Below, one piece after another: positions 8,661 through 22,955 of a DNA stretch of 60,375 nt. The stretch lies in contig NZ_AKJF01000085.1 in assembly GCF_000282475.1 (NCBI RefSeq), positions 1-60,375 on the forward strand, given 5' to 3'. Position 1 is the stretch's first letter, and every line of letters starts with the position of its first letter. Both the position numbers and the translations under genes were made by a program. The stretch is from Pseudomonas sp. GM78 (GTDB lineage: Bacteria; Pseudomonadota; Gammaproteobacteria; Pseudomonadales; Pseudomonadaceae). The notes under the pieces were generated by a model that was not told the origin of the DNA, made no database searches, and saw only the letters and a list, made by a program, of their open reading frames with translations.

Positions 8661-8753
8661 TGTAGGAGCTGCCGCAGGCTGCGATCTTTTGATCTTCGGC
8701 GCCAGCATCATTGCTAAAGATCAAAAGATCGCAGCCTGCGGCAACTCCTACAG
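8661..8753. repeat. REP pair (AGCTGCCGCAGGCTGCGATC type)
   Basis: GTAGGAGCTGCCGCAGGCTG and its complement flank a short spacer. The element overlaps the last six bases of the LysR gene ending at 8748, so the last residues of that protein are encoded by REP sequence. Confidence 0.9.
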
Positions 8754-9650
8754 GGGAGAGTTGTTGCGGTCTTGCAGGACGAGCTCACGCAACGTATCGA
8801 GAAACAGCTTGAGCACCGGCGAATCATCGTCCGCACGATAGGTGGCGTACAACGGCACCTCCGGTAACGCCGGGCTCAGGCGCCGGAACACCAGGCCTGC
8901 CGGAGCCAGCTGTTCGATGGAGGCCGGCAACAAGGCCACGCCGAAACCGGCCCGGACCAGGCTGAGCAAGGTTTGCACCTCGATCACCTGCTGGCGGATC
9001 TGCGGCGTGAATCCGGCCTGGATGCAGCACTGGTAGAGAAAATCGGCAAACCGCGATTGCTTGAGCTCCAGCGCCACGAACGGCTCGGGCGCCAGATCCG
9101 CAGGCGCCAGCAGCGGCTTTGCGGCCAACGGGTGATCTGCAGGCATGACCACCCGGATCGGCTCGTAGATCAGCAGTTCATTGCGCAACTGCGGGTCGTC
9201 ATAGCCGACCCGGAACACGCAGGCATCGATGCGTTTCTCCTTCAGCGCCTTGACCTGCGCCGCGGGCGTCATCTCATGCAGGCGCCAGGACACCTGCGGA
9301 TAACGCTCGCGAAACAGGTGCAAGGCCCGTGGCAACACTCCGACCATCACCGAACTGATCATGCCGATTTCCAGCTCGCCCAACTGGCCGCGGCCGGTTT
9401 GCCGCGTCAGGTCGAGGGCACGGTTGAGCTGTTCGAACACCAGCGGCGCCTGCTCCTTGAGCATTTGCCCGGCGGCGGTCAACTCGACCCGGTGATGACT
9501 GCGCTCGAACAGCGGCGTGCCCAGTTCCTCCTCCAGCAGACGAATCTGCTGGCTCAGCGGTGGCTGGCAGATGTGCAAGCGGGTGGCGGCCCGGCCGAAA
9601 TGCAGCTCTTCGGCCAGCGCCATGAAATAGCGCAACAGACGCAAGTCCAT
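8748..9650 (-). CDS. LysR family transcriptional regulator
   Basis: A 300-residue LysR protein. The N-terminal winged helix-turn-helix (LRYFMALAEELHFGRAATRL, then LSQQIRLLEEELG) is followed by a two-lobed effector domain. The HFGRAA motif places it near the BenM/CatM branch that handles aromatic-compound catabolism. It lies 5 bp downstream of the molybdenum hydroxylase large subunit and probably shares its transcript, so it is a likely regulator of that enzyme. Its end runs into a REP. Confidence 0.88.
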   Translation of the reverse strand: MDLRLLRYFMALAEELHFGRAATRLHICQPPLSQQIRLLEEELGTPLFERSHHRVELTAAGQMLKEQAPLVFEQLNRALDLTRQTGRGQLGELEIGMISSVMVGVLPRALHLFRERYPQVSWRLHEMTPAAQVKALKEKRIDACVFRVGYDDPQLRNELLIYEPIRVVMPADHPLAAKPLLAPADLAPEPFVALELKQSRFADFLYQCCIQAGFTPQIRQQVIEVQTLLSLVRAGFGVALLPASIEQLAPAGLVFRRLSPALPEVPLYATYRADDDSPVLKLFLDTLRELVLQDRNNSPL

Positions 9651-9655
9651 GATGC

Positions 9656-11860
9656 CTAACCCAGGTTCAACGGCGTCGAGCGTTGGCGCACGCCGGTCAG
9701 GCTGAACAGGGCGTTGGCGATGGCCGGGGCCACTGCTGGGCTGCCGAGTTCACCGACGCCACCGGGCTTGGCCGGATCACCTTCGACCAGCAGGATGTCC
9801 AGCGCCGGCATGTCCGACATGCGCGCCACCCGATAATCATGGAAGTTGCTCTGCACCACCCTGCCCTGCTTGATGTCCAGGCGATCGAACAAGGCGTGCC
9901 CCAGGCCCCACATCAGGCCGCCGTAGATCTGTTCTTCGACACCGCCGGGGGAAACCGCCAGACCGCAATCGACCACGCAGGTGAGGTTCTCGACCTTGAT
10001 CGCCCCGTCCTGTTTCGACACCCGAGCAACGACCGCGATGAAACTGCTGTAGCCCTGGTGGGTGGCGATGCCCAACGCCGTGCCTTCAGGCAGGGGCTGG
10101 CCCCAACCGGCACGCTCGGCAGCGCTTTTGAGCACCGCGACGTGCCGTGGCCGCTCCTGCATGTTGGCCAGGCGCATGGCCAGCGGGTCTTGCCCGGCGC
10201 CATGGGCCAGCTCATCCATGAAGCTTTCCACGGCGAACACGTTGGGGATGAAGCTCACTGAGCGATACCAGCCGCTGGGCACCCGGGTTTCGTGCCGGAC
10301 CCAGGAAAGGTCGAGGTTGGCCGGGCGATAGGCGAAATCCCATGCGGTGATGGCTTCCGTGGTGCTGTAGTCCATTTTGTCGGGGCGTTCGAAGTAGCCA
10401 GGTTCCCACTGCTCCGGCGAGGCCGGTGACACGGCCTCCAGCTGCAACGCCGTCAGGCGTCCCTGGGCGTCCAGCGCGCCCTTGGCCCGGTGGAGCGTGG
10501 CCGGGTGCATGAACAACGAACGCATTTCGTCTTCACGACTGTTCATCAGTTTCACCGGCACCCTGGCCTGCTGCGCCAGGTACGCCACTTCGAACAGCCA
10601 GTACTTGGCCTCCCGCGCGCCGAAGCTGCCACCGGACACCAACTCGTTGATGGTGACCTTGTCCTTGGCGATCCCGCACACGGTTTGCGCCGCCTCCAGG
10701 GCCGACGAAGGCACCTGCACGCCACCCCAATATGTGATGGCGTTGTCCTTGACGTGTGCGGTGACGCAGATCGGCTCCAGCGGATTCTGCACCTTGTAGG
10801 GCATGCGGTACTCGGCTTCGAGCAGTTTCGCGGCGTTCGGCCATTGGCCGTTCACATCCCCGGCAGCCATCGCGGACACCCGTTGCGCGCCTTTGTCAGC
10901 CAGCGCCGCGGCCTGGGCCTTGTATAGTTCATCGCTGTCGAAACCGCCTAGCGGCGAGTCGCTCCATTGCACCTCGAGCAACTCGCGGCCCTGATGCGCG
11001 GCCCAGTAGTGGTCCGCCAACACCGCCACGCCTTCGACGTTACCGCCGAGCACGTCGGGACGGCCCGGCACCTTGATCACCTTGCGCACGCCCGGCACCT
11101 GCAGCGCCGCCGTGCTGTTTACTGACACGACACTCGCCCCCACCACCGGCGCGCGTTGAATCACCGCCACCAGCATGCCCGGCAGCACCACGTCGATACT
11201 GTAGGTGAAGCGCCCGCAGACCTTGGCCTGGGCATCGCGCTTGTGCCGCAGTTTGCCGATGTACTTGAACTGCGCCGGGTCCTTGAGCGTGACCTTGGCC
11301 GGTGTCGGCAGATGCGCGGCGATTGCGGCCAGCTCACCGTAACCAAGGCTGCGCTGGCTCGCTGCATGCACCACGCGGCCCTCCTCGGTGGTGCAGCTGT
11401 CGGGGCTGACTTTCCACTGCCGGGCGCCCGCCGTCAGCAACAGCGTGCGCGCCGTCGCCCCGGCCATGCGCAGGCGCTCGTACTCCAGCGACACGCTGGT
11501 GCTGCCGCCGGTGGAGAAGACTTTCCAGATCGGGTGAATGTAGGTCTCGAAGAACGGGTTTTCCGGTGAGATCACTTGCACGGTCATCGGGTTGACGTCC
11601 AGTTCCTCGGCCACGCATGCGGCCAGCGCGGTGTGCGTGCCGGTGCCGGAATCGTGCTTGTGCACCACCAGTTTCACCGTGCCGTCGGGCAGGATGCGCA
11701 CCCAGGCGTTGGGTTCAAAGTCAGCGGCCGGCGTCGGGGCCTTGGGGTCTGTCGCAGACAAACCGCTGGGCAGGTAAAAGGCGATGGCCAGGCCGCTGGC
11801 AGCGGTGGCGCTTTGCTTGAGAAACGCACGCCGCGAGAGGTCCACTGGGGAGATCGTCAT
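9656..11860 (-). CDS. Molybdenum hydroxylase large subunit (IorB type), Tat-exported
   Basis: The 734-residue protein belongs to the xanthine oxidase family molybdopterin-binding subunits, isoquinoline 1-oxidoreductase beta branch. It begins with a twin-arginine signal (SRRAFLK at about 9-15, then a hydrophobic stretch), so the folded enzyme is probably exported. Moco-domain stretches such as GGSFGAREAKYW and GGLMWGLGHALFD are visible. It should hydroxylate an N-heterocycle or aldehyde using water. Its start codon shares one base with the stop of the iron-sulfur subunit (TGATG), showing translational coupling. XdhC, the maturation factor this enzyme class needs, is encoded at 21792. No cytochrome electron acceptor gene is adjacent. 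Confidence 0.87.
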   Translation of the reverse strand: MTISPVDLSRRAFLKQSATAASGLAIAFYLPSGLSATDPKAPTPAADFEPNAWVRILPDGTVKLVVHKHDSGTGTHTALAACVAEELDVNPMTVQVISPENPFFETYIHPIWKVFSTGGSTSVSLEYERLRMAGATARTLLLTAGARQWKVSPDSCTTEEGRVVHAASQRSLGYGELAAIAAHLPTPAKVTLKDPAQFKYIGKLRHKRDAQAKVCGRFTYSIDVVLPGMLVAVIQRAPVVGASVVSVNSTAALQVPGVRKVIKVPGRPDVLGGNVEGVAVLADHYWAAHQGRELLEVQWSDSPLGGFDSDELYKAQAAALADKGAQRVSAMAAGDVNGQWPNAAKLLEAEYRMPYKVQNPLEPICVTAHVKDNAITYWGGVQVPSSALEAAQTVCGIAKDKVTINELVSGGSFGAREAKYWLFEVAYLAQQARVPVKLMNSREDEMRSLFMHPATLHRAKGALDAQGRLTALQLEAVSPASPEQWEPGYFERPDKMDYSTTEAITAWDFAYRPANLDLSWVRHETRVPSGWYRSVSFIPNVFAVESFMDELAHGAGQDPLAMRLANMQERPRHVAVLKSAAERAGWGQPLPEGTALGIATHQGYSSFIAVVARVSKQDGAIKVENLTCVVDCGLAVSPGGVEEQIYGGLMWGLGHALFDRLDIKQGRVVQSNFHDYRVARMSDMPALDILLVEGDPAKPGGVGELGSPAVAPAIANALFSLTGVRQRSTPLNLG

Positions 11861-12324
11861 CACGCCTCCTTCGGCGCGTTGGCCGCGCGCTTGATCGCCT
11901 TGTTGATCCGCCCGTAGGTGCCGCAGCGGCACAGGTTGCCGGACATGGCATTGCGGATCGAATCGTCGGTCACTGCTGCACCGGTGTTGAGCAACGCGGC
12001 GGCAGACATGATCTGACCGGATTGACAGTAACCGCATTGCGGCACATCTTCGGCAACCCAGGCCAGTTGCAGCGGATGCTGCCCGGTGGGCGACAAGCCT
12101 TCGATGGTGGTAATGCTGTGCCCCGCCACGGCAGCCACCGGCAATTGGCAGGAGCGGACGGCGACCCCGTCCAGATGCACGGTGCAGGCGCCGCACAGGC
12201 CCATGCCGCAACCGAAGCGGGTGCCGGTGAGTTTCAAATGGTCACGCAACACCCATAACAAGGGCATGGAGGGCGATGTCTCTACCAGCTCGCGTCGTTC
12301 GCCGTTTACCGTGAATTCGATCAT
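11860..12324 (-). CDS. Molybdenum hydroxylase [2Fe-2S] subunit (IorA type)
   Basis: The 154-residue electron-transfer subunit contains a plant-type ferredoxin [2Fe-2S] cluster (Cys39, 44, 47, 59) and the C-terminal second [2Fe-2S] cluster (Cys97, 100, 132, 134) in the standard order for this family. It has no signal peptide and would be exported piggy-back with the Tat-tagged large subunit. The start at 12324 has a TTGGAG site. It is the first gene of a minus-strand operon with the large subunit and a LysR gene, divergent from the LysR gene at 12443 across a 118-bp promoter region. Confidence 0.92.
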
Positions 12325-12442
12325 TGTCAGGCTCCAAGAGAGCGGCCCGTCTTTGTGCAGGCCTGGTACTCGATTATTGGGAGCCTTGGGAAAATCGGGC
12401 CAGCGACGATTTCTGCCATCCTGTGTAAGTAGGACTAACAGC

Positions 12443-13333
12443 ATGTACAAGCGATACCCGTCAGTACAGTCCATGAGTGCTTTCATCCAGGCCGCCCGCA
12501 GCGGCAGCTTCTCCAGCGCCGCGCGCAAACTGGACCTGACCCACAGCGCCATCAGCCAGCAGATCCGCTCCCTGGAAGACTTCATCGGCCAGCCGCTTTT
12601 CGTACGCGAAGGCGGCGGCAGCAACCTGACCGACGCCGGGCAGTTGTTCGCCAGCGTGCTGTCCGACGGACTGGCGCAGATCGACCGGGCGCTGTCTTCA
12701 GTGAAAAACCGCAGCGTGGCGCAACGCCTCACCCTCGATGTGGACAGCGAACTGGCGCAGAGCTGGCTCAATCCGCGCCTGCCGCAACTGCTCGATCTGT
12801 TGCCCGAGCATGAGGTGGTTTTGCTGTCGATGCCGCGCTCGGACCGCAGCACGTTCGAACGGGTGGACCTGTCCTTGCGCTACGGTTATGGCGATTGGGA
12901 AGACTGCGAGATGACGCAGATTTGCGGCGATCGGGTGATGGCGGTGGCTTCGCCCGAATTGCTTGAGCGGCATGGTTTGCAGTTACCGCTGAGCCCGGCG
13001 CAGATCCTGGAATTGCCGTTGCTGGGGTATACGCGACGGTCGTGGATTCCGTGGCTGGATGCGGCGGGCATGCCTCCTGTCGAGCCTGCGGCGCGGGTGG
13101 TGTTTGATAACGCGGCGAACCTGATTGCCGCCGCCGAGGCCGGCGTCGGTGCGGGACTGGTGCGTGGCTTGCTGGCGGCAGATGCGTTGCGCAGCGGTCG
13201 GTTGGTGGCGCTGAACGAGGCGCAGATTGCGGCGCATTACAACCTCTACGCCGTGTGGCCGCCGGGGCAAGCCGAGCGGGTGGCGCCGGTGGTTGAGGCG
13301 GTCAAGCAGTTGGCTTTGCATACACAACACTGA
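12443..13333 (+). CDS. LysR family transcriptional regulator (GcvA-like)
   Basis: A 296-residue LysR protein of the GcvA/AmpR-like branch: [20 protein letters not shown], then [13 protein letters not shown]-type HTH and an effector domain ending in LYAVWPPGQ. The open frame extends far to the left, but that part lies opposite the iron-sulfur subunit gene and has no homology; ATG 12443 gives the canonical N-terminus with a TAGGAC site. Placed between the hydroxylase operon and the amidohydrolase/UbiD genes, it probably controls one or both. Confidence 0.88.
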
Positions 13334-13658
13334 CGCCATCGCCAGCAGGCTAGCTCCCACAGTTGACTGCGTTTCTACAGGTGGAATGCATTCCCCTGTG
13401 GGAGCTAGCCTGCTGGCGATGAGGCCCGCCCAGTCAACACGAAACCATATCGAACACGTATCAACCCCTCGCCCAATTAATATTGTACGAATCCCACACC
13501 CCCTTCCAATACTCCTCCCCAAGCAGCCAGCGTCCCGAGCCGGATGCGACCAGGCGAGGGAATGCGCGAGTCTTTGCGCATAGAAATGGCCGATTGCCCG
13601 GACGTGGCTGCTAGCGAACCGCAAGGTTCCCTTACCCGCTATCAGGAGATCGACTTCA
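13334..13658. promoter_or_regulatory. Upstream region of the amidohydrolase/UbiD operon
   Basis: This 325-bp gap holds a REP pair (13337-13421) and then about 235 bp with no gene. The middle part is locally AT-rich (around CCAATTAATATTGTACGAAT), where a promoter and a LysR site of the T-N11-A kind could lie, but I cannot fix one. A TATCAGGAGATCG ribosome site precedes the amidohydrolase start. Confidence 0.5.
13337..13421. repeat. REP pair (GCTAGCCTGCTGGCGATG type)
   Basis: CATCGCCAGCAGGCTAGCTC and its complement lie about 35 bp apart. The CTAGC variant in both arms shows compensated change, since both arms carry it. Confidence 0.88.
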
Positions 13659-14588
13659 ATGATCATCGATATCAGTTGCTATCCCACCGATCTGGTGGAC
13701 CTCGCCTGGAGGCATGACGGTGACCCGTTCACCGGCGAGCGTCTGCTGCAGATGATGGATGGCCCGTACATGGTCAACGGCAAACCTCGCCGCATCGACA
13801 AAGCCTTCATCCAGCCGCCGCAGGGCAACACCATCTACACCTGGACCGACGGTGAACTCAGCGGGCGCGAATCCATCGACGCCTACATGGCCTACACGCT
13901 GAAAATGGTCCAGACCTACCCCGATCGCTTCATCGGTTGCTTCGTCTACAACCCGCGCTGCGGCGTGGAAAACGGCGTCGAGGCGATCGAGCGCTACGTC
14001 AAGGAACACGGTTTCAAGATGGTCCAGATGCAGGCCAACATGCACGCCTACCGTCCTGACCGCGCCCTGGACTGGGTGCGCCCGGCCTTCGAGAAATGCG
14101 CCGAGCTGGGTATCCCGGTCAAGCTGCACACCGGCGACGGGCCTTACAGCATCCCCTCGGAATGGGTGCCGATGATCAAGGAGTTTCCCAACGTCGATTT
14201 CATCATGGCCCACTTCGGCGTGCAGACCGGCGGGGTCTACGTGTTCGAGCCGATGCAATGGGCGATGGAGTTGCCCAACGTCTACTGCGAATCGGGCTGG
14301 TGCCTGCAATCGCGGATCGTCGAGTTCGCCAAGGTCTTGCCCACCCACAAGATCCTCTTCGGCACCGATACACCGCCGAACGAACCGGGCATGTGGCTGC
14401 GCCTGCTGGAAGTGTTGTGCCACGAACCGCCGCAAGGCCTGAACCTCGACGAAGACACCCTCGAGGAGTACCTGGGCAACAACACCGCCCGGATGATCGG
14501 CCTCGAACCGACACCGCCGCCGCGCTCCGTTTCCGAAGCAGAGGCGCAACTCAAGCGTCCCGTCACCACGCAACTGGCCAGGAGCTGA
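13659..14588 (+). CDS. Amidohydrolase-2 family protein lacking the HxH metal motif
   Basis: A 309-residue TIM-barrel protein of the amidohydrolase-2/ACMSD group, clearly paralogous to its downstream neighbour throughout. Later barrel residues are kept: His157 (KLHTGDGP), His185 (AHFG) and Asp237 (FGTDTPPNEPG). At the first strand, where the neighbour has DTHLHPT, this protein has DISCYPT, so both histidines of the metal-binding HxH are replaced (Ser6, Tyr8), and the neighbour's His123 is Gln125. It may be a non-catalytic or altered subunit of a hetero-oligomer. It is the first gene of the presumed operon and ends 4 bp before the next. Confidence 0.87.
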   Translation: MIIDISCYPTDLVDLAWRHDGDPFTGERLLQMMDGPYMVNGKPRRIDKAFIQPPQGNTIYTWTDGELSGRESIDAYMAYTLKMVQTYPDRFIGCFVYNPRCGVENGVEAIERYVKEHGFKMVQMQANMHAYRPDRALDWVRPAFEKCAELGIPVKLHTGDGPYSIPSEWVPMIKEFPNVDFIMAHFGVQTGGVYVFEPMQWAMELPNVYCESGWCLQSRIVEFAKVLPTHKILFGTDTPPNEPGMWLRLLEVLCHEPPQGLNLDEDTLEEYLGNNTARMIGLEPTPPPRSVSEAEAQLKRPVTTQLARS

Positions 14589-14592
14589 ACCG

Positions 14593-15498
14593 ATGATCAT
14601 CGATACCCATCTGCACCCCACCAACCTGGTCGACGAGGCCTGGCGCCACACCGGCGAACCCTTCACCGGCGAGCGCATGCTCAAGCTGATGGACGGCCCG
14701 TACATGATCAACGGCAAGCCGCGCCGCATCGACATGGGGTTCATCCAGCCACCGCCGGGCAACACCGGCTACCGCGACGGCAACCGCCGTGGCCGTGAAG
14801 GCGTGCGTGACTACATGTCCTACGTCGCCGAGCTGTGCGTGAAGTACCCCGACCGTTTCATCGGCAACTTCAACTTCAACCCGCGCTGGGGACCGGAAAA
14901 CGGTGCGGCGGAGCTGGAATTCCACATCAAGGAATACGGCTTCAAGATGCTCAAGCTGCACGCCAACATGCACGGTTATCGCCCGGACCGGGCGCTGGAC
15001 TGGCTGCGCCCGGCGATGAAGGTGTGTGCCAAGTACAACATCGTGGTGCTGATCCACACCGGCGACGGCCCGTACACCATTCCGACCATGTTCTACCCGA
15101 TCATCCGCGAGTTCCCGATGGTCAATTTCATCATCGGTCACTTCGGCATCCAGACCGGCGGCAACTACTCGTTCGAAGCGTTCTGGATGGCGATGGACAC
15201 GCCGAACGTGTACTGCGAATCCGGCTGGTGCTTCCAGTCGCGGATCGTCGAGTTCGCCAAGGACCTGCCACGCAACAAGATCGTGTTCGGCACCGACTCG
15301 CCGCCGAACGAGCCGGGCATGTGGCTGCGCGAGCTTGAGGTGCTGTGCTCGCCGGCGCCACAGGGCCTGGGCATCGACGAGGACCATCTTGAGGATTACC
15401 TGGGCAACAACATCGCCCGCTTGTGCGGCATCGAACCGACGCCGCCACCCAAGGACCTGGCCGAGGCGGACATTCGCCTGACCACCACTTACCTGTAA
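14593..15498 (+). CDS. Amidohydrolase-2 family metal-dependent hydrolase/decarboxylase
   Basis: A 301-residue member of the ACMSD-like amidohydrolase-2 family, which includes non-oxidative decarboxylases (gamma-resorcylate, 5-carboxyvanillate, isoorotate), hydratases and hydrolases. The full metal and catalytic set appears: His6 and His8 (DTHLHPT), His155 (IHTGDGP), His183 (GHFG) and Asp235 (FGTDSPP). An AGGAGC ribosome site lies inside the end of the preceding gene. It is most likely the active member of the pair. With UbiD/UbiX downstream it could act on the decarboxylation product or open a ring, but the reaction is unknown. Confidence 0.88.
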   Translation: MIIDTHLHPTNLVDEAWRHTGEPFTGERMLKLMDGPYMINGKPRRIDMGFIQPPPGNTGYRDGNRRGREGVRDYMSYVAELCVKYPDRFIGNFNFNPRWGPENGAAELEFHIKEYGFKMLKLHANMHGYRPDRALDWLRPAMKVCAKYNIVVLIHTGDGPYTIPTMFYPIIREFPMVNFIIGHFGIQTGGNYSFEAFWMAMDTPNVYCESGWCFQSRIVEFAKDLPRNKIVFGTDSPPNEPGMWLRELEVLCSPAPQGLGIDEDHLEDYLGNNIARLCGIEPTPPPKDLAEADIRLTTTYL

Positions 15499-15513
15499 CG
15501 ACATGCAATATCC

Positions 15514-15606
15514 CCTGTAGGAGTGAGCCTGCTCGCGATAGCGGTCGATCAGTCACATTGATTTTGAATGGGCTGACCTCTTCGCGAGCAGGCTCGCTCC
15601 TACAGG
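15514..15606. repeat. REP pair (GAGCGAGCCTGCTCGC type) inside the operon
   Basis: CTGTAGGAGTGAGCCTGCTC and a facing copy lie between the second amidohydrolase and ubiD, which are co-directional. It may act as an mRNA stability or attenuation element within the operon. Confidence 0.88.
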
Positions 15607-15639
15607 TACGCACAGCACTGCTTTTCACGAGGTGAAACC

Positions 15640-17025
15640 ATGACCCTCTCGACGCTCGGCGATACCCAGGATTTTCACGATTTTCTAGACGCCTATCGCC
15701 GGCAATACCCGGACGATGTGCTCAGCGTCCAGCATTCCCTTTCAGCCGATCAGGATGTCACCGCCCTGGTCGATGCGCTCGCCTCCCAGGGCCGCGATCC
15801 CTTGTTGATCTGCGAAAAAGTCGGCCACTTCGGCGCCCCGGTGGCCACCAACCTGTTCGCCTCCCGCACCCGCATCGCCCGCATGTTCGGCGTTGCCCCG
15901 GCGCAATTGCACGAGACTTTCCAGCAACGCGCCAACCACCCCATCGCCCCGCGCTACGTCGAAACCGGCCCGGTGCAGGACGAGATCTTCGAAGGCGAAG
16001 CCGTGGACCTGGCGCTGCTGCCGATGCTCAAGCATTTCGCCAGTGATCGCGGCCCCTACATCACCAACGCGATCATCATTGCCGAAGACCCGGTCAGCGG
16101 CATCGCCAACATGAGCTACCACCGCTCGATGCGCCACACCCGGCAAACCCTCGCCACCAGCCTGCACTCACGCGGCCATCTGTGGCGCATGCTGCAGACC
16201 GCCCGCGAGCGCGGCGAGGAATTGCGCGTGGCGATGGTGGTCGGCGCACACCCGCTGTTCATGTTCGCGGCGGCGGCACGGCTGCCATTCGGCAGCGATG
16301 AGCGAGCAGTGGCGGGCGGTTTGTTCGGCGCACCGCTGGAGCTGGTAAAAACCCCGCGCTACGGCATCGGCGTCCCGGCCAGCGCAGAGTATGTCCTGGA
16401 AGGTGCGATCGATCCGGCGGCCTATGCCGAAGAAGGTCCGTTCGGTGAGTTCAGCGGCTACTCCTCGGATCGCTCGACCAACAATGTGCTGCGGGTCGAT
16501 ACCCTGATGCGGCGCAAGGACGCCTGGCTGGTGGACGTGGTCGGTGGCCGCTACGCCGAACACCTGACCCTGGCGCGCCTGCCCCGGGAAGCGGAAATGA
16601 GCGAGAAACTCAAGGCGCGCTTCCCCGCCGTCACCGCCGTGCACTACCCCAATTCAGGCACACACTTCCATTGCTACGTGGCTCTGGAGCAAAGCCGCGA
16701 CGGCGAAGCGCGGCAGATCATGCTCGCCCTGCTCGGCTGGGACCCGTACCTGAAAACCGTGATCGCGGTGGACAGCGACATCGACATCAGCGATGACAGT
16801 CAGGTGCTGTGGGCACTGGCCACGCACTTCCAGCCGCACCAGGACATCTTCGTCATTGATGGCTTGCCTGGCAGCCCGCTGGACCCGTCATCGTCCGTCG
16901 ACGGCACCACCTCGCGCATGGGCCTGGACGCTACCCGCGGTTCGGGATTCGACGGGATCAAGGCGCAGCTGGACCAGGACGTGCTCGAGCGCGCCCGCCA
17001 ACTGCTCGCAGGCCAGCAATCATGA
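15640..17025 (+). CDS. UbiD family prenyl-FMN-dependent decarboxylase
   Basis: The 461-residue protein has the UbiD fold signature: SYHRSMRH with the likely catalytic arginine near Arg162, the conserved glutamate pair in EGPFGEFSGY (Glu265 and Glu270), and the C-terminal VIDGLPGSPLDPS segment. Such enzymes reversibly decarboxylate unsaturated or (hetero)aromatic acids using prenylated FMN. The cofactor synthase UbiX is encoded next, with a 4-bp ATGA overlap. It is not the ubiquinone-pathway UbiD by context, since all neighbours are catabolic. A GAGGTGAAACC site precedes the start. Confidence 0.9.
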   Translation: MTLSTLGDTQDFHDFLDAYRRQYPDDVLSVQHSLSADQDVTALVDALASQGRDPLLICEKVGHFGAPVATNLFASRTRIARMFGVAPAQLHETFQQRANHPIAPRYVETGPVQDEIFEGEAVDLALLPMLKHFASDRGPYITNAIIIAEDPVSGIANMSYHRSMRHTRQTLATSLHSRGHLWRMLQTARERGEELRVAMVVGAHPLFMFAAAARLPFGSDERAVAGGLFGAPLELVKTPRYGIGVPASAEYVLEGAIDPAAYAEEGPFGEFSGYSSDRSTNNVLRVDTLMRRKDAWLVDVVGGRYAEHLTLARLPREAEMSEKLKARFPAVTAVHYPNSGTHFHCYVALEQSRDGEARQIMLALLGWDPYLKTVIAVDSDIDISDDSQVLWALATHFQPHQDIFVIDGLPGSPLDPSSSVDGTTSRMGLDATRGSGFDGIKAQLDQDVLERARQLLAGQQS

Positions 17026-17708
17026 ACCGCCAGCGCATGGTGGTCGGCATCAGCGGTGCGTCGGGTTTTATCTACGGCGTGCGCCTGCTGCAATTGCTCG
17101 CCGAGCTCGACATTGAAAGCCACTTGGTCATCAGCCGCGCCGCGCTGCTGACCATGGCCCACGAAACCGATTACAAACTGGCCGACGTCACCGCGCTGGC
17201 CAGCCATTACCACCGCGCCGACGACGTGGCCGCCGGGATCGCCAGCGGTTCGTTCCGCTGCCTGGGCATGGTGGTCGCGCCCTGTTCCATGCGCACCCTG
17301 GCGGAAATCGCCACCGGCACCTCTTCAGGCCTGATCGGCCGGGCCGCCGACGTCACCCTCAAGGAGCGTCGCACCTTGGTGCTGATGGCCCGGGAAACCC
17401 CGCTGACCCTCGCCCACCTGCGCAACATGACGGCTGTCACCGAGATGGGCGGCATCATCGCCCCGCCCGTTCCGGCCTTCTACGCCCGCCCGCAAGACCT
17501 GGCGCAGATGGTCGATCACAGCCTCGGCCGCGTCCTCGACCTGTTCGGCCTCGATGCCGGCACTGCAACGCGCTGGGGTGAACACACAAGAACCTGTGGG
17601 AGCGGGCTTGCCCGCGATGAGGCCATCACATCCAACAATCCCGTTGCCAGACACACCGCCATCGCGGGCAAGCCCGCTCCCACAGTTGATAGCACTCCGA
17701 CCATATAG
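17022..17708 (+). CDS. UbiX family flavin prenyltransferase with REP-encoded tail
   Basis: It makes prenyl-FMN from FMN and dimethylallyl phosphate for the adjacent UbiD. The flavin-binding GISGASGFIYG (about 9-19), APCSMRTLAEIATG and RETPLTLAHLRNM motifs are all present. The family core ends near residue 190, at LFGLDAG. The frame then continues straight through a REP element (17593-17685), adding about 38 residues (starting TCGSGLARDEA) unlike any UbiX, to a stop at 17708. The tail is probably a late extension caused by REP insertion over the original stop. Confidence 0.88.
   Translation: MNRQRMVVGISGASGFIYGVRLLQLLAELDIESHLVISRAALLTMAHETDYKLADVTALASHYHRADDVAAGIASGSFRCLGMVVAPCSMRTLAEIATGTSSGLIGRAADVTLKERRTLVLMARETPLTLAHLRNMTAVTEMGGIIAPPVPAFYARPQDLAQMVDHSLGRVLDLFGLDAGTATRWGEHTRTCGSGLARDEAITSNNPVARHTAIAGKPAPTVDSTPTI
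17593..17685. repeat. REP pair (GCGGGCTTGCCCGCGATG type) inside a coding frame
   Basis: CTGTGGGAGCGGGCTTGCCC and its complement lie wholly inside the 3' end of the ubiX frame. It is the only member of this subfamily in the window. Confidence 0.88.
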
Positions 17709-17726
17709 TTTTTTAAGGAGCATCAC

Positions 17727-18773
17727 ATGAACACCCCCTTCAACGCCCCAACCCCCAACACCAAAATCCCGGTGACCATCCTCACCGGCTTCCTCGGCGC
17801 CGGCAAAACCACCCTGCTCAACTATATCCTCAAGCAAAACCACGGGCGCAAGATCGCCGTGATCGAAAACGAGTTCGGTGAGGTCGGCATCGACGGCGAC
17901 CTGGTGCTCAGTTCCGAAACCGAAGAAATCTACGAGATGGTCAACGGCTGCGTGTGCTGCACCGCCGAGGTCCGCGAAGACCTGGTGCGCATCGTCCGTG
18001 AACTGGTGGCGCGGCCGGTGCGACTCGATCACATCCTGATCGAGACCAGTGGCCTGGCCGACCCGTACCCGGTGGCCCAGAGCTTTTTCATCAACGACCC
18101 GATCGCCGATGAAGTGGAACTCGACGCCATTGTCACCATGGTCGATGCCAGGCACATCGCCCAGCACCTGCACGACCTGCAACTCGATGGCGTGGACAAC
18201 CAGGCCGTGGACCAGATCGTCTGCGCCGACCGCATTGTCATCAACAAGGTCGATCTGGTCAGTGACGCCGAAGTGGCGTCCCTGAGTGACAAGATTCGCG
18301 GCTTGAATGCCACGGCCGACCTGGTGACCTCCAGTTATGCCGAAATCGACCTGTCGAAAATCCTTGGCATCGGCGCCTTCGAATCCACGCAGAAACTCAT
18401 GGAAATAGGTGCCGAGCACGATCACCACGCCGATGACCATCATCACGAACATGACGAACCCGACCATGAGCACGACCCGAGCGTGACATCGGTGGGCATC
18501 GCCGTGGATGGCGCGGTGAACCTGGGCGACTTCCACCGCTGGATCACCCGCCTGCGTACCGAGCAAGCCGACAACTTGTATCGCATGAAGGGCGTGCTGG
18601 CGGTGGCCGATCAGGACCAGCGCTACGTGCTGCAAGGGGTGCACAGCCTCGTCGAGTTCCGTGCCTCCACCCCATGGGGCGCCGAACCGCGCACCAGCAA
18701 GATTGTGTTCATCGGCCGCGACCTGGACCGCGCGGCCCTGAACCAGGGCTTTGCCGCCTGCCTGGCAGGCTGA
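17727..18773 (+). CDS. CobW/COG0523 family metallochaperone GTPase
   Basis: The 348-residue G3E GTPase has a Walker A GFLGAGKT (21-28), the metal-binding CVCC (75-78), NKVD (173-176) and a histidine-rich stretch (about 231-250, with many His/Asp) before the CobW C-terminal domain. COG0523 proteins deliver zinc, iron or manganese to client enzymes. In this operon the obvious clients are the metal-dependent amidohydrolases. No Zur-type site was recognised in front. A TAAGGAGCATCAC ribosome site is visible, 18 bp after the ubiX stop. Confidence 0.9.
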   Translation: MNTPFNAPTPNTKIPVTILTGFLGAGKTTLLNYILKQNHGRKIAVIENEFGEVGIDGDLVLSSETEEIYEMVNGCVCCTAEVREDLVRIVRELVARPVRLDHILIETSGLADPYPVAQSFFINDPIADEVELDAIVTMVDARHIAQHLHDLQLDGVDNQAVDQIVCADRIVINKVDLVSDAEVASLSDKIRGLNATADLVTSSYAEIDLSKILGIGAFESTQKLMEIGAEHDHHADDHHHEHDEPDHEHDPSVTSVGIAVDGAVNLGDFHRWITRLRTEQADNLYRMKGVLAVADQDQRYVLQGVHSLVEFRASTPWGAEPRTSKIVFIGRDLDRAALNQGFAACLAG

Positions 18774-18886
18774 AAAAGGCATCGGAGCCGGTGGATGGCG
18801 GTTCCGGGCACATGAATGACAGATGCAACAGGCATCAGAACGAATACCCCTCTTTACCGAATAACAACAGCTAGAGGTGATTCTCC

Positions 18887-20248
18887 ATGTCGTCAGCCAA
18901 TACCCCCGCAACGTCATCCATCCACCCCGTCGACCGGGTTCTGCCGGTGCGGCAAATGCTTACCCTCGGCCTGCAGCACATGGCCGTTTCGTACATCGGC
19001 GCAATCGCAGTGCCGTTGATTGTCGCCAGCGCCCTGAAAATGTCCCAGGCCGACACGGTGGTGCTGATCAGCACCACGCTGTTCTGCTCGGGCATCGCCA
19101 CCCTGCTGCAAACCGTCGGTTTCTGGAAATTCGGCGTGCGCCTGCCGATCCTCCAGGGCGTGGCGTTCAGCAGCGTGGGCCCGGTGATCGCCATCGGCAC
19201 CAACCCGGACGTCGGTTTCGCCGGGGTCTGCGGCGCGGTGATCGGCGCGGGGATTTTCACCATGCTGATCGCACCGTTCGTGGGTCGATTACGTCGCTTT
19301 TTTCCACCCGTGGTCACCGGTTGCATCGTCACCGTGATCGGCCTGCAGCTGTTTCCGATTGCCTATGAGTGGGTCGGCGGCGGGCGCCATGCCAGTGATT
19401 TCGGCGCGCCAGCGTACCTGGCCGTAGCTGCGGTGGTGTTGCTCAGCATCCTGCTGGTCAACCGCTATGGCAGCCCGATGCTGCGCAACATGGCGGTGCT
19501 GGTGGGCATGCTGGTGGGCGCGGCGCTGGCTTACGGGCTGGGCATGGGCAGTTTTCACAGCGTGCAGGATTCGCCGTGGCTCACCGTGCCCTACCCGTTC
19601 TACTTCGGCCTGCCGACCTTCAGCCTGATTCCCATAGCGACCATGGTGGTGGTGATGATCGTGCAGATGGTCGAATCCATGGGGCTGTTCGTGGCCATTG
19701 GGGACATCGTCGACAAACCGGTGGAGGAGAAACAGGTGATCAACGGCCTGCGCGCCAATGGCCTGGCGAGCACCATCGCCGGGATGTTCGCGGCGTTCCC
19801 GTTCATTGCCTTCATGGAAAACGTCGGGCTGGTGATCCTCACCGGTGTGCGCAGTCGCTGGGTGGTCGCCATCAGCGGCTTGCTGATGTGCTCGGTGGCA
19901 CTGGTGCCCAAGGCCGGGGCGATCATCGCCTCGATGCCGACGGCGGCCCTCGGCGGTGCCGGGATCGCCATGTTCGGCGTGGTCGCGGCAGCCGGGATCC
20001 AGACCCTGGCCAAGGTCGACTACGAGCGCAACCGCTACAACGTGCTGATCGTCGGCTTCACCCTCGCCGCCGCCCTGGTACCGGTGCTGGCCCCGGCCCT
20101 GTTCAAGCAATTGCCCGAATGGTCGCAGCCGTTCCTGCACAGCAGCGTGGTGATCGCCTGCCTGGTGTCGGTGCTGCTCAACGCCACCCTCAACGGCGTC
20201 AGCGTGCCTGATGCCGCCACCAGCGAATCCGCCACCCACAGCCTCTGA
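18887..20248 (+). CDS. NCS2 family nucleobase:cation symporter
   Basis: A 453-residue permease of the NCS2/NAT (xanthine/uracil permease) family with 12-14 hydrophobic helices. Gln30-His31 in GLQHMAVSYIG matches the conserved QH of TM1, and the NAT signature appears as MENVGLVILTGVRSR. The family imports purines or pyrimidines with protons or sodium, so it is the best clue that the operon handles a nucleobase-like compound. A GAGGTGATTCTCC site precedes the start; the deaminase follows 12 bp later. Confidence 0.88.
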   Translation: MSSANTPATSSIHPVDRVLPVRQMLTLGLQHMAVSYIGAIAVPLIVASALKMSQADTVVLISTTLFCSGIATLLQTVGFWKFGVRLPILQGVAFSSVGPVIAIGTNPDVGFAGVCGAVIGAGIFTMLIAPFVGRLRRFFPPVVTGCIVTVIGLQLFPIAYEWVGGGRHASDFGAPAYLAVAAVVLLSILLVNRYGSPMLRNMAVLVGMLVGAALAYGLGMGSFHSVQDSPWLTVPYPFYFGLPTFSLIPIATMVVVMIVQMVESMGLFVAIGDIVDKPVEEKQVINGLRANGLASTIAGMFAAFPFIAFMENVGLVILTGVRSRWVVAISGLLMCSVALVPKAGAIIASMPTAALGGAGIAMFGVVAAAGIQTLAKVDYERNRYNVLIVGFTLAAALVPVLAPALFKQLPEWSQPFLHSSVVIACLVSVLLNATLNGVSVPDAATSESATHSL

Positions 20249-20260
20249 CTGGAGCCGACC

Positions 20261-21649
20261 ATGACTCAACTGCAAAACATCCTGATCAAGAACCCCGTGG
20301 CGGTGATGACCGGCCTGCGTGGCCCGCGGGCCAGGGCCGGCGCCCCGGACATCCGCATCGTCGACGGGCGCATCGCCGAAATGGCTCCGGGCCTTCAAGC
20401 GCAACCCGGAGAGCGGCTGATCGATGCGCGCCACGCGGTGGTGTATCCAGGCTGGATCAACACCCACCATCACCTGTTCCAGAACCTGCTCAAAGCGGTT
20501 CCCGAAGGATTGAACCAGGACCTGCAAGGCTGGCTGGCCAGCGTGCCCTACCCGCGCCTCAACCGTTTCACGCCGCAACTGGCGCGGATCGCCGCACAAC
20601 TGGGCATGGCCGAACTGCTGCTGTCGGGCGTGACCACCTGCGCCGATCATCATTACCTCTACCATGCCAACAGCACCACCGAGACCGGTGACCTGCTGTT
20701 CGACATGGCCGATCAGTTCGGCCTGCGTTTCGTGCTGTGCCGGGGCGGCGCGCTGGAGTCCGCCAGCGCCCATCCGGGGTTCTCGAAAACCGCGCTGCAA
20801 CCGGAAACCCTCGACCAGATGGTCGGTGACATCGAACGGCTGAAGTCGCGTTATCACCAGGACACCCCGGATGCCATGCGCCGGGTGGTGGTCGCGCCGA
20901 CCACACCGACGTTTTCGCTGCCGCCGACGCTGCTGCGCGAACTGGCCCACACCGCCCGCGGCCTCGGTTTGCGCCTGCACACGCACCTGTCGGAAACGCA
21001 GAACTACGTGAACTTCTGCCGCGAGAAATACAACTGCCTGCCGGTGGAATTCGTCGCCGAACACGAATGGCTCGGCCCGGACGTGTGGTTCGCCCACGCC
21101 GTTCATATGCAACCCGCTGAAATCCGCATGCTCGCGCAAACCGGCACCGGCATCTCCCATTGCCCGGTGAGCAATGCGCGCCTCGGTAGCGGCGTCGCGC
21201 CGGTGCCGCAGATGTTCGAGGCCGGGGTGCCGATTTCCCTTGGCGTGGATGGCGTGGCCTCCAACGAGTCCGGCAGCATGGTGGGCGAAGCGAACACCGC
21301 GTGGCTGATTCACCGGGCACAGCAAGGCGCCTCGGCCACCACTGCCGAAGATGTCATCAACTGGGGTACGGCCGGCGGTGCCCAGGTGCTGGGGCTGGGT
21401 GCGGTCGGCACCCTGGAAATCGGCCAGGCGGCGGACCTGGTGATCTACGGCCTGGACCATCCACGCTTCTTCGGTTTCCACGACATTGCCGTCGCGCCGG
21501 TGGTGGCGGGTGAGCCGATCACGGTGAAGTACAGCCTGGTCGGTGGCCGGGTGGTGGTCGATAACGGCGAGATCCCGGGGCTGGACATGCAGCGGATGCG
21601 GGCCGAGGCCTTTGATGGAGTACGGCAGTTGATGAACATCGACAACTGA
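20261..21649 (+). CDS. 8-oxoguanine deaminase-like amidohydrolase
   Basis: The 462-residue COG0402 amidohydrolase has the HxH at His69/His71 (INTHHHLFQNLL), a HLSET motif, FAHAVHM and the catalytic Asp in LGVDGVASNES. The overall pattern, including FCREKY after HLSET, resembles recalled 8-oxoguanine/isoguanine deaminase Pa0142 and its relatives, which remove an amino or halogen substituent from aza-aromatic rings. It is translated right after the NCS2 permease with a CTGGAG site, so the transported base is a likely substrate. Confidence 0.85.
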   Translation: MTQLQNILIKNPVAVMTGLRGPRARAGAPDIRIVDGRIAEMAPGLQAQPGERLIDARHAVVYPGWINTHHHLFQNLLKAVPEGLNQDLQGWLASVPYPRLNRFTPQLARIAAQLGMAELLLSGVTTCADHHYLYHANSTTETGDLLFDMADQFGLRFVLCRGGALESASAHPGFSKTALQPETLDQMVGDIERLKSRYHQDTPDAMRRVVVAPTTPTFSLPPTLLRELAHTARGLGLRLHTHLSETQNYVNFCREKYNCLPVEFVAEHEWLGPDVWFAHAVHMQPAEIRMLAQTGTGISHCPVSNARLGSGVAPVPQMFEAGVPISLGVDGVASNESGSMVGEANTAWLIHRAQQGASATTAEDVINWGTAGGAQVLGLGAVGTLEIGQAADLVIYGLDHPRFFGFHDIAVAPVVAGEPITVKYSLVGGRVVVDNGEIPGLDMQRMRAEAFDGVRQLMNIDN

Positions 21650-21670
21650 TCCTCAAGCCACCCCGCTCCC

Positions 21671-21762
21671 CTGTAGGAGTGAGCCTGCTCGCGATAGCGG
21701 TGGGTCAGCTACATCGACGTTGACTGATGTACCGCAATCGCGAGCAGGCTCGCTCCCACAGG
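21671..21762. repeat. REP pair (GAGCGAGCCTGCTCGC type) inside the operon
   Basis: CTGTAGGAGTGAGCCTGCTC and a facing copy separate the deaminase from xdhC. One arm carries GTGAGCC and the other GGCTCGCT, a mismatch also present in the pair at 15514. Confidence 0.88.
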
Positions 21763-21791
21763 GTTCTCCACGATGCTTAGGATTTACTGCC

Positions 21792-22955
21792 ATGTCCGGC
21801 TTCAATGATCTCTTACAAGCCATCGACACTGCCGCCCACCACGGCGAAGAAAGCGTCCTCGCCACCGTGGTCAAGGTGGAAGGCTCGGCCTACCGCCGTC
21901 CCGGTGCACGGATGCTCATCCCCATACACGGCCGCACGGTCGGCACCGTCAGCGGCGGTTGCCTGGAGCAGGACCTGGCGAAAAAAGCCTGGTGGCTCAC
22001 CGATTCCGGCGAACCGGTGGTGCGCCGCTACAGCACAGGCGCCACCGAGGACGAAGACGACGAGCAAAGCGCCCTGACCTTTGGCCTGGGTTGCAACGGC
22101 ACGGTATTCGTCATGCTCGAACGCCTGCGGGCAAAATCGCCATCCCCGGCCATCGAACTGCTGCGACGGGTGCGCGACCGTCAACAACCGGCCGCCATGG
22201 CCACGGTGATTGCCAGTTCCCGGGATGCATCGGCCAGGGTCGGTGACCGTCTGCTGTCAGACACCGAGGGCAGCCTGCGCAACCTGCAACTGAACGAGGC
22301 GATCCGCCGTGACCTGCACAAGACACTGACGCAGAAAAAATCCTCGACACGGCTCTACAGCAACGCCGGTGGTGAGGTCGAAGTGTTTTTCGAGTACATC
22401 GCCCCACCGCCCCGCCTGGTGATTATCGGCGCCGGCCACGACGCACAGCCGCTCGTGCGCATGGCCAAACTGCTGGACTGGCACGTCAGCGTCATCGACA
22501 GCCGCAGCCATTTCGCCCGCGCCGAACGTTTCCCGCAAGCCGACGCCGTTGTCCTCGCCAGCCTCGACAACCCGTTCGACCTGGCCCCGCTGATCGACGG
22601 CGCCTTTGTGGCGGTGATGACCCACAGCTACCGCCAGGACCGCCATTGGCTCGGGCTGGCGCTGCACGCCGCGCCCGCCTACATCGGCCAACTCGGCCCC
22701 AGGGAGCGCACCGAACGCCTGCTGGCGGAAATCGGCCCGGGCCACTCGGCGCTGCACTACCCGATGGGCCTCGACCTGGGTGGCGATGCACCGCAGAGCG
22801 TGGCGCTGGCGATACTCGCCGAGATGACGGCGGTGATGCATCAACGCCAGGGCGGGATGCTCAGGCATCGGGGCAAACCGATTCACCAGGTGGATCTTGT
22901 GGTCAGTGAAAAGCTTGAGCCGTCAGGTATATGCCCGCTGGCAAGCGCCACCTAG
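21792..22955 (+). CDS. XdhC/CoxI family molybdenum cofactor maturation protein
   Basis: A 387-residue XdhC protein: the N-terminal XdhC/CoxI domain carries VSGGCLEQD and FGLGCNG, and the C-terminal Rossmann-like XdhC domain starts near residue 210 (LVIIGAGHDAQPL). XdhC sulfurates the molybdenum cofactor and inserts it into xanthine-dehydrogenase-type enzymes. No xdhAB is present, so the IorAB pair at 9656-12324 is the likely client, tying the two ends of the block together. The start at 21792 avoids a REP-derived extension. Its TAG shares the palindrome CTAG with the stop of the convergent helicase gene. Confidence 0.88.
   Translation: MSGFNDLLQAIDTAAHHGEESVLATVVKVEGSAYRRPGARMLIPIHGRTVGTVSGGCLEQDLAKKAWWLTDSGEPVVRRYSTGATEDEDDEQSALTFGLGCNGTVFVMLERLRAKSPSPAIELLRRVRDRQQPAAMATVIASSRDASARVGDRLLSDTEGSLRNLQLNEAIRRDLHKTLTQKKSSTRLYSNAGGEVEVFFEYIAPPPRLVIIGAGHDAQPLVRMAKLLDWHVSVIDSRSHFARAERFPQADAVVLASLDNPFDLAPLIDGAFVAVMTHSYRQDRHWLGLALHAAPAYIGQLGPRERTERLLAEIGPGHSALHYPMGLDLGGDAPQSVALAILAEMTAVMHQRQGGMLRHRGKPIHQVDLVVSEKLEPSGICPLASAT

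Follow-up and report, generated by a model that had tools for sequence, protein, structure and literature searches.

A conserved bacterial gene set with paired amidohydrolases, UbiD and a candidate riboswitch, and its possible role in pterin breakdown to xanthine

Introduction

What compound is consumed by a gene set that joins a molybdenum hydroxylase, two amidohydrolases, a UbiD-type decarboxylase, a purine-type permease and a deaminase? Such a set occupies positions 8748-22955 of a 60,375-nucleotide stretch of Pseudomonas sp. GM78 (contig NZ_AKJF01000085.1, positions 1 to 60,375; hereafter the window), whose source genome is assembled as 7.29 Mb in 235 contigs. The genes iorA-iorB-lysR1 run leftward, lysR2 runs rightward, and AHa-AHb-ubiD-ubiX-cobW-NCS2-deaminase-xdhC again run rightward, AHa and AHb designating two amidohydrolase-2 paralogues. 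That these genes form a conserved genetic unit is well supported by comparison among genomes. We infer from the same comparison a substrate, individual enzyme roles and an order of steps, and we place just on the probable side the reading that the unit serves to break down pterins (pteridines), with xanthine as the end product. Pterins are the ring system of folate and of insect pigments. The original prediction, made from the letters of the window, knew of no described pathway with this set, and in open-licence PubMed Central (PMC) full text we likewise found no paper that ties these genes together.

Conservation of the gene set

A scan of GTDB contigs with AHb gave 229 relatives, of which the best 80 were kept (47 Pseudomonas loci and 33 others), and six plasmid loci were added to the comparison. 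AHa, AHb, UbiD and UbiX occur together in 80/80 GTDB loci and 6/6 plasmid loci, a recurrence that points to more than chance. CobW accompanies them in 75 of the 80 GTDB loci and NCS2 in 73; the window-type deaminase was matched in 69, and IorB, counted from 40% identity upward, in 67. LysR1 (at least 50% identity) is found in 43/47 Pseudomonas and 27/33 other GTDB loci, and XdhC is the least constant member (11/47 Pseudomonas loci). The left and right blocks flanking LysR2 adjoin in 43 of the 47 Pseudomonas loci. Among these loci the neighbourhood search called for by the original prediction found the blocks together, with L046 as the sole uncut exception; the other three (L014, L015, L019) are cut on the left by contig ends, which also truncate L016, L020, L042, L047 and L064 on the right, as well as L085 and L088. 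The two blocks are linked in Marinobacterium, Ralstonia, Caballeronia, Paraburkholderia and Burkholderia loci too.

AHa and AHb are the most conserved members, with median identities of 85% and 90% in the 33 non-Pseudomonas loci; the medians are lower for UbiD (74%, 33 loci) and IorB (64%, the 24 IorB found). AHb also matches 126 plasmid records, of which 91 reach at least 80% identity, 35 stay below 60% and none falls in between, and because of this gap the AHb group looks like an isolated family. In an evenly drawn sample of 249 Pseudomonas genomes, AHb occurs in 26 and the deaminase (at least 89% identity) in exactly those 26; since the two belong to a single linked unit, the count shows joint presence rather than independent events. 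In an even sample of 369 genomes of the window's class, AHb was matched at E <=1e-20 in one, the window's own. Paralogues of the deaminase with 53-55% identity occur in 10 other Pseudomonas genomes, and around five of these AHa, AHb, UbiD, UbiX and CobW were all unmatched. The genes outside the unit (PAS-LuxR, the large helicase and M20) match in 0/39 non-Pseudomonas loci.

Several parts of the unit appear to be exchangeable. In Paracoccus, S. meliloti pSymB, Shinella and Ensifer, the AHa-AHb-UbiD core stands with a CodA-like deaminase and a three-subunit xanthine-dehydrogenase-type enzyme, such that in rhizobia the molybdenum hydroxylase function seems to have been retained while the left block gave way to a different gene. 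PnrA-type Bmp proteins are encoded in Massilia and Ensifer loci, and two annotated BMP proteins in the Shinella locus. Because of this non-orthologous replacement across loci, the pathway seems to need AHa/AHb, UbiD/UbiX, a metal GTPase, a purine-type importer, a deaminase and a molybdenum hydroxylase. Two further kinds of gene accompany some loci. An Asp/Glu racemase, arylmalonate decarboxylase or EutA-like gene occurs in 15, for instance after the deaminase at L091:20829-21617 and after CobW at L078:14288-15034, and an aldolase gene lies beside the deaminase in Shinella (L104:5297-6097) and Ensifer (L105:5305-6093, class II by Pfam), where it could act on pterin side chains.

Deaminase, permease and molybdenum hydroxylase

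The best PDB matches of the deaminase are 2paj (452 bits, E 1.8e-134, spanning the whole protein), 3hpa (302 bits) and 7ww2 (279 bits); we take 2PAJ to be the isoxanthopterin deaminase reported by Hall et al. (2010). The protein passes the PRK12393 model (781.9 bits, cut-off 543) and fails that of 8-oxoguanine deaminase, PRK08203 (432.9 bits, cut-off 532), so that 8-oxoguanine deamination, the activity suggested by its earlier label, is rejected as its function in view of the curated cut-off and the best PDB match. Amidohydrolases of the same group act on isoxanthopterin and pterin-6-carboxylate, according to a passage of PMC5270733. The kinship of the deaminase, the xanthine-type NCS2 permease, the PnrA/BMP proteins of the variant loci and the xanthine riboswitch described below argue for a pteridine or purine substrate, probably a pterin rather than a pyridine acid. 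The earlier proposal that the genes import, hydroxylate, deaminate and decarboxylate an N-heterocycle seems right as far as a catabolic unit is concerned; these same four lines speak against the pyridine- or pyrimidine-type acid that it named.

IorAB is a two-subunit molybdenum and [2Fe-2S] enzyme, and no FAD subunit is encoded alongside; it falls under every NCBIfam equivalog cut-off. An RRx[FLVI] motif lies near the start of IorB in 66/66 IorB hits that align from the N-terminus, and because of this twin-arginine beginning IorAB probably works in the periplasm. The replacement molybdenum enzymes of Paracoccus and S. meliloti have no twin-arginine start.

A paired amidohydrolase beside a UbiD decarboxylase

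AHa and AHb are 64% identical, and it is by this identity to AHb, itself a match to PF04909, that AHa is assigned to the family; neither protein matches any NCBIfam model. The HxH metal motif of strand 1 is intact in AHb (DTHLHPT in 84/84 loci), whereas AHa carries SCYPT at the same position in 84/84 loci, for which reason we do not claim AHa as a canonical metal hydrolase. H155, H183 and D235 (AHb numbering) are kept in both. A predicted AHb model (predicted local distance difference test, pLDDT, 75.9; predicted template modelling score, pTM, 0.82) aligns with the amidohydrolase-2/ACMSD group in a non-exhaustive list that leaves room for other folds and that holds decarboxylases, lactone hydrolases and a hydratase, among them IDCase with 5-carboxyuracil and ACMSD. 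The predicted fold by itself thus leaves the choice among decarboxylase, lactone hydrolase and hydratase undecided.

UbiD passes the TIGR00148 cut-off, and the adjacent UbiX gene scores above its own. The best PDB match of UbiD is 6h6v (HmfF; E 5.9e-64), followed by AnInD (7p9q). The 6H6V protein is named PtHmfF, and the HmfF and AnInD enzymes act on heteroaromatic acids (PMC8988006).

Two kinds of leader RNA before AHa

The xanthine riboswitch, or NMT1 RNA (RF03054), is described in passages of PMC7373994 as an OFF switch that binds xanthine and urate and sits on genes acting before these compounds, PRK12393 amidohydrolases included. In S. meliloti, RF03054 matches at L090:12838-12907, 127 bases before AHa, and scores 43.4 bits (cut-off 36), with E-values of 5.7e-6 in 133 kb and 1.5e-8 in 351 bases. 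Weaker matches precede AHa in L078 (25.9 bits), L076 (25.7), L074 (24.3) and L077 (22.2). Whole-genome scans, in which E values up to 10 were allowed and matches were assigned to loci by coordinate arithmetic, placed the AHa-leader match best in four of six genomes (L074, L078, L082, L086) and behind one and two above-cut-off matches in the L076 and L077 genomes, respectively; the AHa-leader E-values range from 0.005 to 0.07 per genome. A riboswitch core pattern, composed after inspection of two of the eight leaders that it marks, occurs eight times in 1.96 Mb, always 126-162 bases before AHa (L077 and L092 being of the same species), and in none of five mononucleotide shuffles. The positions placed near xanthine in part of a crystal structure report, A6, A9, G10, C11, G35, A39, U40 and U41 (PMC8266621), are kept in 8/8 of these leaders by inspection, most of them being required by the pattern itself. 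The presence of RF03054 before the amidohydrolase pair in S. meliloti, with sub-threshold forms in Burkholderiales, makes xanthine a fairly supported candidate for the product of the pathway. The sub-threshold forms of L074, L076, L077, L078, L082 and L086 share an altered core, and it is possible that they are variants with another ligand. In Rfam scans of the loci other than L055, L056 and L066, RF03054 was not found at its cut-off in the window or in L104, L105, L089, L080, L071, L074, L076, L077, L082 and L086.

The window's lineage carries a different RNA, which ends 46 bases before AHa and comprises helices P1 and P3 around a conserved GGCGAGGGAA / UAGAAAUGGCC core. By pattern it precedes AHa in the window and in 71 others among 87 leaders, and in L081 besides. 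Its structure was assessed on alignment A5, which holds 28 of 62 unique leaders, the rows being related and the helices having been picked on the same alignment. The 16 pairs examined belong to P3 and to the two runs of P1; they hold 35 cells with both-side changes, compared with 12.3 in shuffles, and 90.4% of cells were paired compared with 20-44% when the helices were slid; further pair types showed no excess (21 versus 18.7 in shuffles; 50/500 shuffles). Covariation is strong for P3 (96.8% paired, with both-side changes in 5/7 pairs) and fair for P1, whose runs are 92.9% and 79.9% paired. The structure proposed here rests on this covariation, since the single-sequence fold of the window leader is unremarkable (z -1.45; 21/200 shuffles fold at least as well). 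When all unique leaders, a set mixing both RNA types, were folded together with RNAalifold, no structure emerged.

A model of this RNA, R1, has a single hit in each of 14/149 Pseudomonas genomes, which are exactly the carriers of AHb and some of which supplied training rows, in each case 45-46 bases before AHa; it also finds one copy per genome in 8/8 other genomes, all eight being sources of training rows. Among the genomes searched, the RNA is thus known only before this operon. Rfam offers no overlapping match at E <=10 and none in the window at gathering score, and the L083 leader has no Rfam match. We regard it as a candidate for a new riboswitch class. The AHa leaders of L071, L080, L089, L104 and L105 show no recognisable copy of either RNA, and the L015 leader is cut by a contig end. 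The interval between lysR2 and AHa also holds a long near-perfect inverted repeat (13334-13428), presumably of the repetitive extragenic palindromic type, which is not conserved in other Pseudomonas leaders.

A proposed route from pterin to xanthine

How might these parts work together? Periplasmic IorAB would hydroxylate an oxidised pterin on its pyrazine ring, at C6/C7, and the product would be imported by the NCS2 permease. The deaminase would strip off the 2-amino group to give 2,4,6,7-tetrahydroxypteridine, whose cyclic oxamide AHa/AHb would open with water and reclose with water loss, yielding xanthine-8-carboxylate. The net reaction would be the isomerisation of Enzyme Commission (EC) number 5.5.1.3, and an isomerisation made up of cyclic amide hydrolysis and dehydrating reclosure would suit an amidohydrolase-fold pair. 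UbiD, with prenylated flavin mononucleotide (prFMN) from UbiX, would split xanthine-8-carboxylate into xanthine and CO2, and the xanthine would pass into the genome's own xanthine dehydrogenase and urate route. CobW would load metal onto an amidohydrolase, XdhC would mature IorAB, and xanthine, or an oxidised pteridine or purine related to it, would feed back through the leader RNA, a xanthine riboswitch in some lineages and a different structured RNA in that of the window. Xanthine could be used, since the genome encodes a canonical xanthine dehydrogenase large subunit (XdhB, 1300.9 bits, cut-off 849.5) and an OHCU decarboxylase. McNutt in the 1960s reportedly found that Alcaligenes faecalis deaminates isoxanthopterin and oxidises the product to 2,4,6,7-tetrahydroxypteridine, which then passes through xanthine-8-carboxylate to xanthine. 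Tetrahydroxypteridine and xanthine-8-carboxylate, being isomers, are alternative assignments of one mass (PMC5941619).

A fuller version of this pathway is possible but tentative. AHa and AHb would be an obligate heteromer of metal-bearing and metal-less subunits encoded by the genes for EC 5.5.1.3, UbiD would be a prFMN-dependent xanthine-8-carboxylate decarboxylase, and the RNA feedback would come from the xanthine riboswitch or its variants in some lineages and, for Pseudomonas, Marinobacterium, Ralstonia and Burkholderia relatives, from an undescribed riboswitch class with xanthine or a pteridine as its ligand. If true, genes would be at hand for an activity that stands in a 2007 table of activities without sequence, there ranked 'difficult' (in the relevant part of PMC1940265). 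It would also explain the fate of folate's pterin half in soil and plant-associated bacteria, left open in a passage on Variovorax (PMC9513972), and would add a new UbiD substrate type, a ring-contracting heteromer in the amidohydrolase superfamily and a candidate riboswitch class with an obvious ligand list.

A number of observations weigh against the pterin-to-xanthine reading. We know of no assay for any protein of the set. Export of IorAB through the twin-arginine pathway implies that hydroxylation precedes import, contrary to the order of the McNutt pathway. A molybdenum hydroxylase of either query type is unmatched within the fetched stretch in 8/39 non-Pseudomonas loci (L085 and L088 being cut short), and neither deaminase query type was matched in L077, L078, L082, L086 and L092 within the flanks fetched for these five loci (10-14 kb per side). 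In L046, from Pseudomonas baetica, the leader RNA and the right block are present, but some 9 kb of gap-free sequence before AHa (L046:1-9066) lacks iorAB. The racemase-like gene of 15 loci and the class II aldolase of two have no place in the scheme, and AHb and UbiD could each carry out the step assigned to the other, the predicted fold family of AHb being rich in decarboxylases. As for the RNA, the window is without the xanthine riboswitch, the six Burkholderiales leaders (L074, L076, L077, L078, L082, L086) score 21.4-25.9 bits and fall under the RF03054 cut-off, and at E 10 matches arise in 12/14 control genomes, none of them above the cut-off.

Among other readings, the one that survives best, though we consider it unlikely, is that the genes yield xanthine or urate from a different compound. 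A modified guanine, a purine-8-carboxylate and a 7-deazapurine carboxylate are examples; UbiD would remove the ring carboxylate and the amidohydrolases would act on a different ring. The xanthine riboswitch and purine-type transporters would suit any xanthine-yielding route, and HmfF, the nearest relative of UbiD, takes a five-ring heteroaromatic acid; the deaminase, however, falls on the 2PAJ side of the split between pterin and 8-oxoguanine enzymes, and no nitrilase, queuine or nucleosidase genes are among 30 extra open reading frames scanned (of 304 neighbours). Slightly less likely again is pterin catabolism in which UbiD takes the carboxylate off the side chain of pterin- or lumazine-6-carboxylate, folate breakdown products, and AHa/AHb work at a later step, either decarboxylating or hydrolysing a ring. 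A passage of PMC9513972 puts forward lumazine-6-carboxylate as a candidate intermediate of folate breakdown, and the AHb fold family holds many metal-dependent decarboxylases, but one paralogue with the metal motif beside one without it looks more like a one-step heteromer, and the riboswitch indicates xanthine, which requires ring contraction whatever the side chain.

More doubtful still is the conversion foreseen by the original prediction, in which the enzymes hydroxylate and deaminate a pyridine- or pyrimidine-like carboxylic acid, remove its carboxyl group, open its ring and could hand the product to the Pyd pathway further right. The UbiD and IorAB families do act on such rings, IDCase with 5-carboxyuracil and ACMSD stand in the AHb fold list, and a hydantoinase/carbamoylase-type M20 gene lies nearby (29001-30275); against this stand the 2PAJ kinship, the pbuX-type permease, the PnrA/BMP proteins and the xanthine riboswitch of the variants. 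The coupling to Pyd in particular is unsupported, the M20 gene beside the unit matching in 26/47 Pseudomonas loci and in 0/39 others. A furoate/hydroxymethylfurfural (hmf) system, with HmfF, a UbiX-type partner, a molybdenum-dependent furoyl-CoA oxidising enzyme and an accessory factor, is very improbable: HmfF is the best UbiD match, and the P. umsongensis hmf cluster, as described in part of PMC12064950, likewise includes a UbiX-type partner as well as an accessory protein that inserts molybdopterin, but no CoA ligase is among the genes identified at 8748-22955, the deaminase, NCS2 and amidohydrolases would have no role, and the text of PMC12064950 does not contain the word amidohydrolase.

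Gene inventory and neighbouring genes

The families named in the original prediction were confirmed at 8748-22955 by Pfam and NCBIfam matches, with start codons checked, and the core is shared among the 80 GTDB loci (Table 1). CobW falls under the NCBIfam equivalog cut-offs, and the iorA and iorB genes share position 11860. The arrangement had been described as divergent sets around one LysR gene; the sets are divergent, and the LysR genes number two.

Table 1. Features of the gene set in the window, with the evidence for each
Feature	Coordinates	Strand	Evidence
LysR1 regulator, end of iorAB set	8748-9650	-	Pfam PF03466 7.8e-47, PF00126
IorB-like molybdenum hydroxylase large subunit, Tat-type (twin-arginine translocation) signal SRRAFLKQ	9656-11860	-	Pfam PF20256, PF02738
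IorA-like [2Fe-2S] subunit	11860-12324	-	Pfam PF01799 4.9e-28, PF00111
LysR2 regulator, divergent from iorA	12443-13333	+	Pfam PF03466, PF00126
Structured leader RNA, candidate riboswitch	13519-13612	+	covariation, model R1
AHa, amidohydrolase-2 paralogue, SCY replaces HxH; proposed partner subunit	13659-14588	+	64% identity to AHb
AHb, amidohydrolase-2, HxH intact; proposed catalytic subunit of tetrahydroxypteridine cycloisomerase	14593-15498	+	PF04909 E 8.6e-46
UbiD, proposed xanthine-8-carboxylate decarboxylase	15640-17025	+	Pfam UbiD, UbiD_N, UbiD_C (PF01977, PF20695, PF20696)
UbiX flavin prenyltransferase	17022-17708	+	TIGR00421 233.7 bits, cut-off 108.9
CobW/COG0523 GTPase, putative metal chaperone	17727-18773	+	Pfam PF02492, PF07683
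NCS2 permease, xanthine permease subfamily	18887-20248	+	TIGR03173 pbuX 476.8 bits, cut-off 414.15
Deaminase (Amidohydro_1, COG0402), isoxanthopterin deaminase branch	20261-21649	+	2paj match, PRK12393
XdhC family molybdenum cofactor maturation factor, not constant	21792-22955	+	Pfam PF13478, PF02625

Beyond xdhC, positions 22952-28801 (-) encode a 1949-residue helicase-nuclease with DUF4011 and MTES_1575, which matches the PADLOC candidate defence family PDC-S37 (1197.9 bits) and which stands beside the unit in 1/47 Pseudomonas loci. The M20 gene that follows (29001-30275, -) matches both hydantoinase/carbamoylase and allantoate amidohydrolase models.

Comparison with known systems

The closest counterpart of the proposed pathway is the McNutt isoxanthopterin pathway, which is known to us as a set of activities and may differ from the unit in the order of hydroxylation and deamination, and for each step of which the unit holds a fitting enzyme type. 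The window deaminase resembles the isoxanthopterin deaminase (2paj) over its full length; the passages that cite that enzyme in PMC11121863 and PMC5270733 attach no operon or pathway to it. Among UbiD enzymes with solved structure, HmfF and AnInD are the nearest relatives and take heteroaromatic acids, and they differ from the window UbiD in substrates and operons. The hallmark of hmf clusters is presumably a CoA ligase and furoyl-CoA enzymes together with HmfF; the window unit has no CoA ligase.

With the NMT1 RNA the unit shares the PRK12393 amidohydrolases, which passages of PMC7373994 list among its associated genes and whose model the window deaminase passes. The paper makes no mention of UbiD. 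The RNA also precedes AHa, above its cut-off in S. meliloti and below it in the Burkholderiales forms, and the window's lineage has the other RNA in its place. Finally, folate degradation in Variovorax, with carboxypeptidase G and an Arad3529-type pterin deaminase, likewise sets an amidohydrolase-type pterin deaminase to work in a soil bacterium; in the relevant passages (PMC9513972) breakdown is followed to deaminopteroic acid and the later steps are left open, and the Arad3529-type gene lies near predicted cytosine and creatine amidases. It is to this Variovorax deaminase that the CodA-like deaminase in the rhizobial versions of the unit may be compared.

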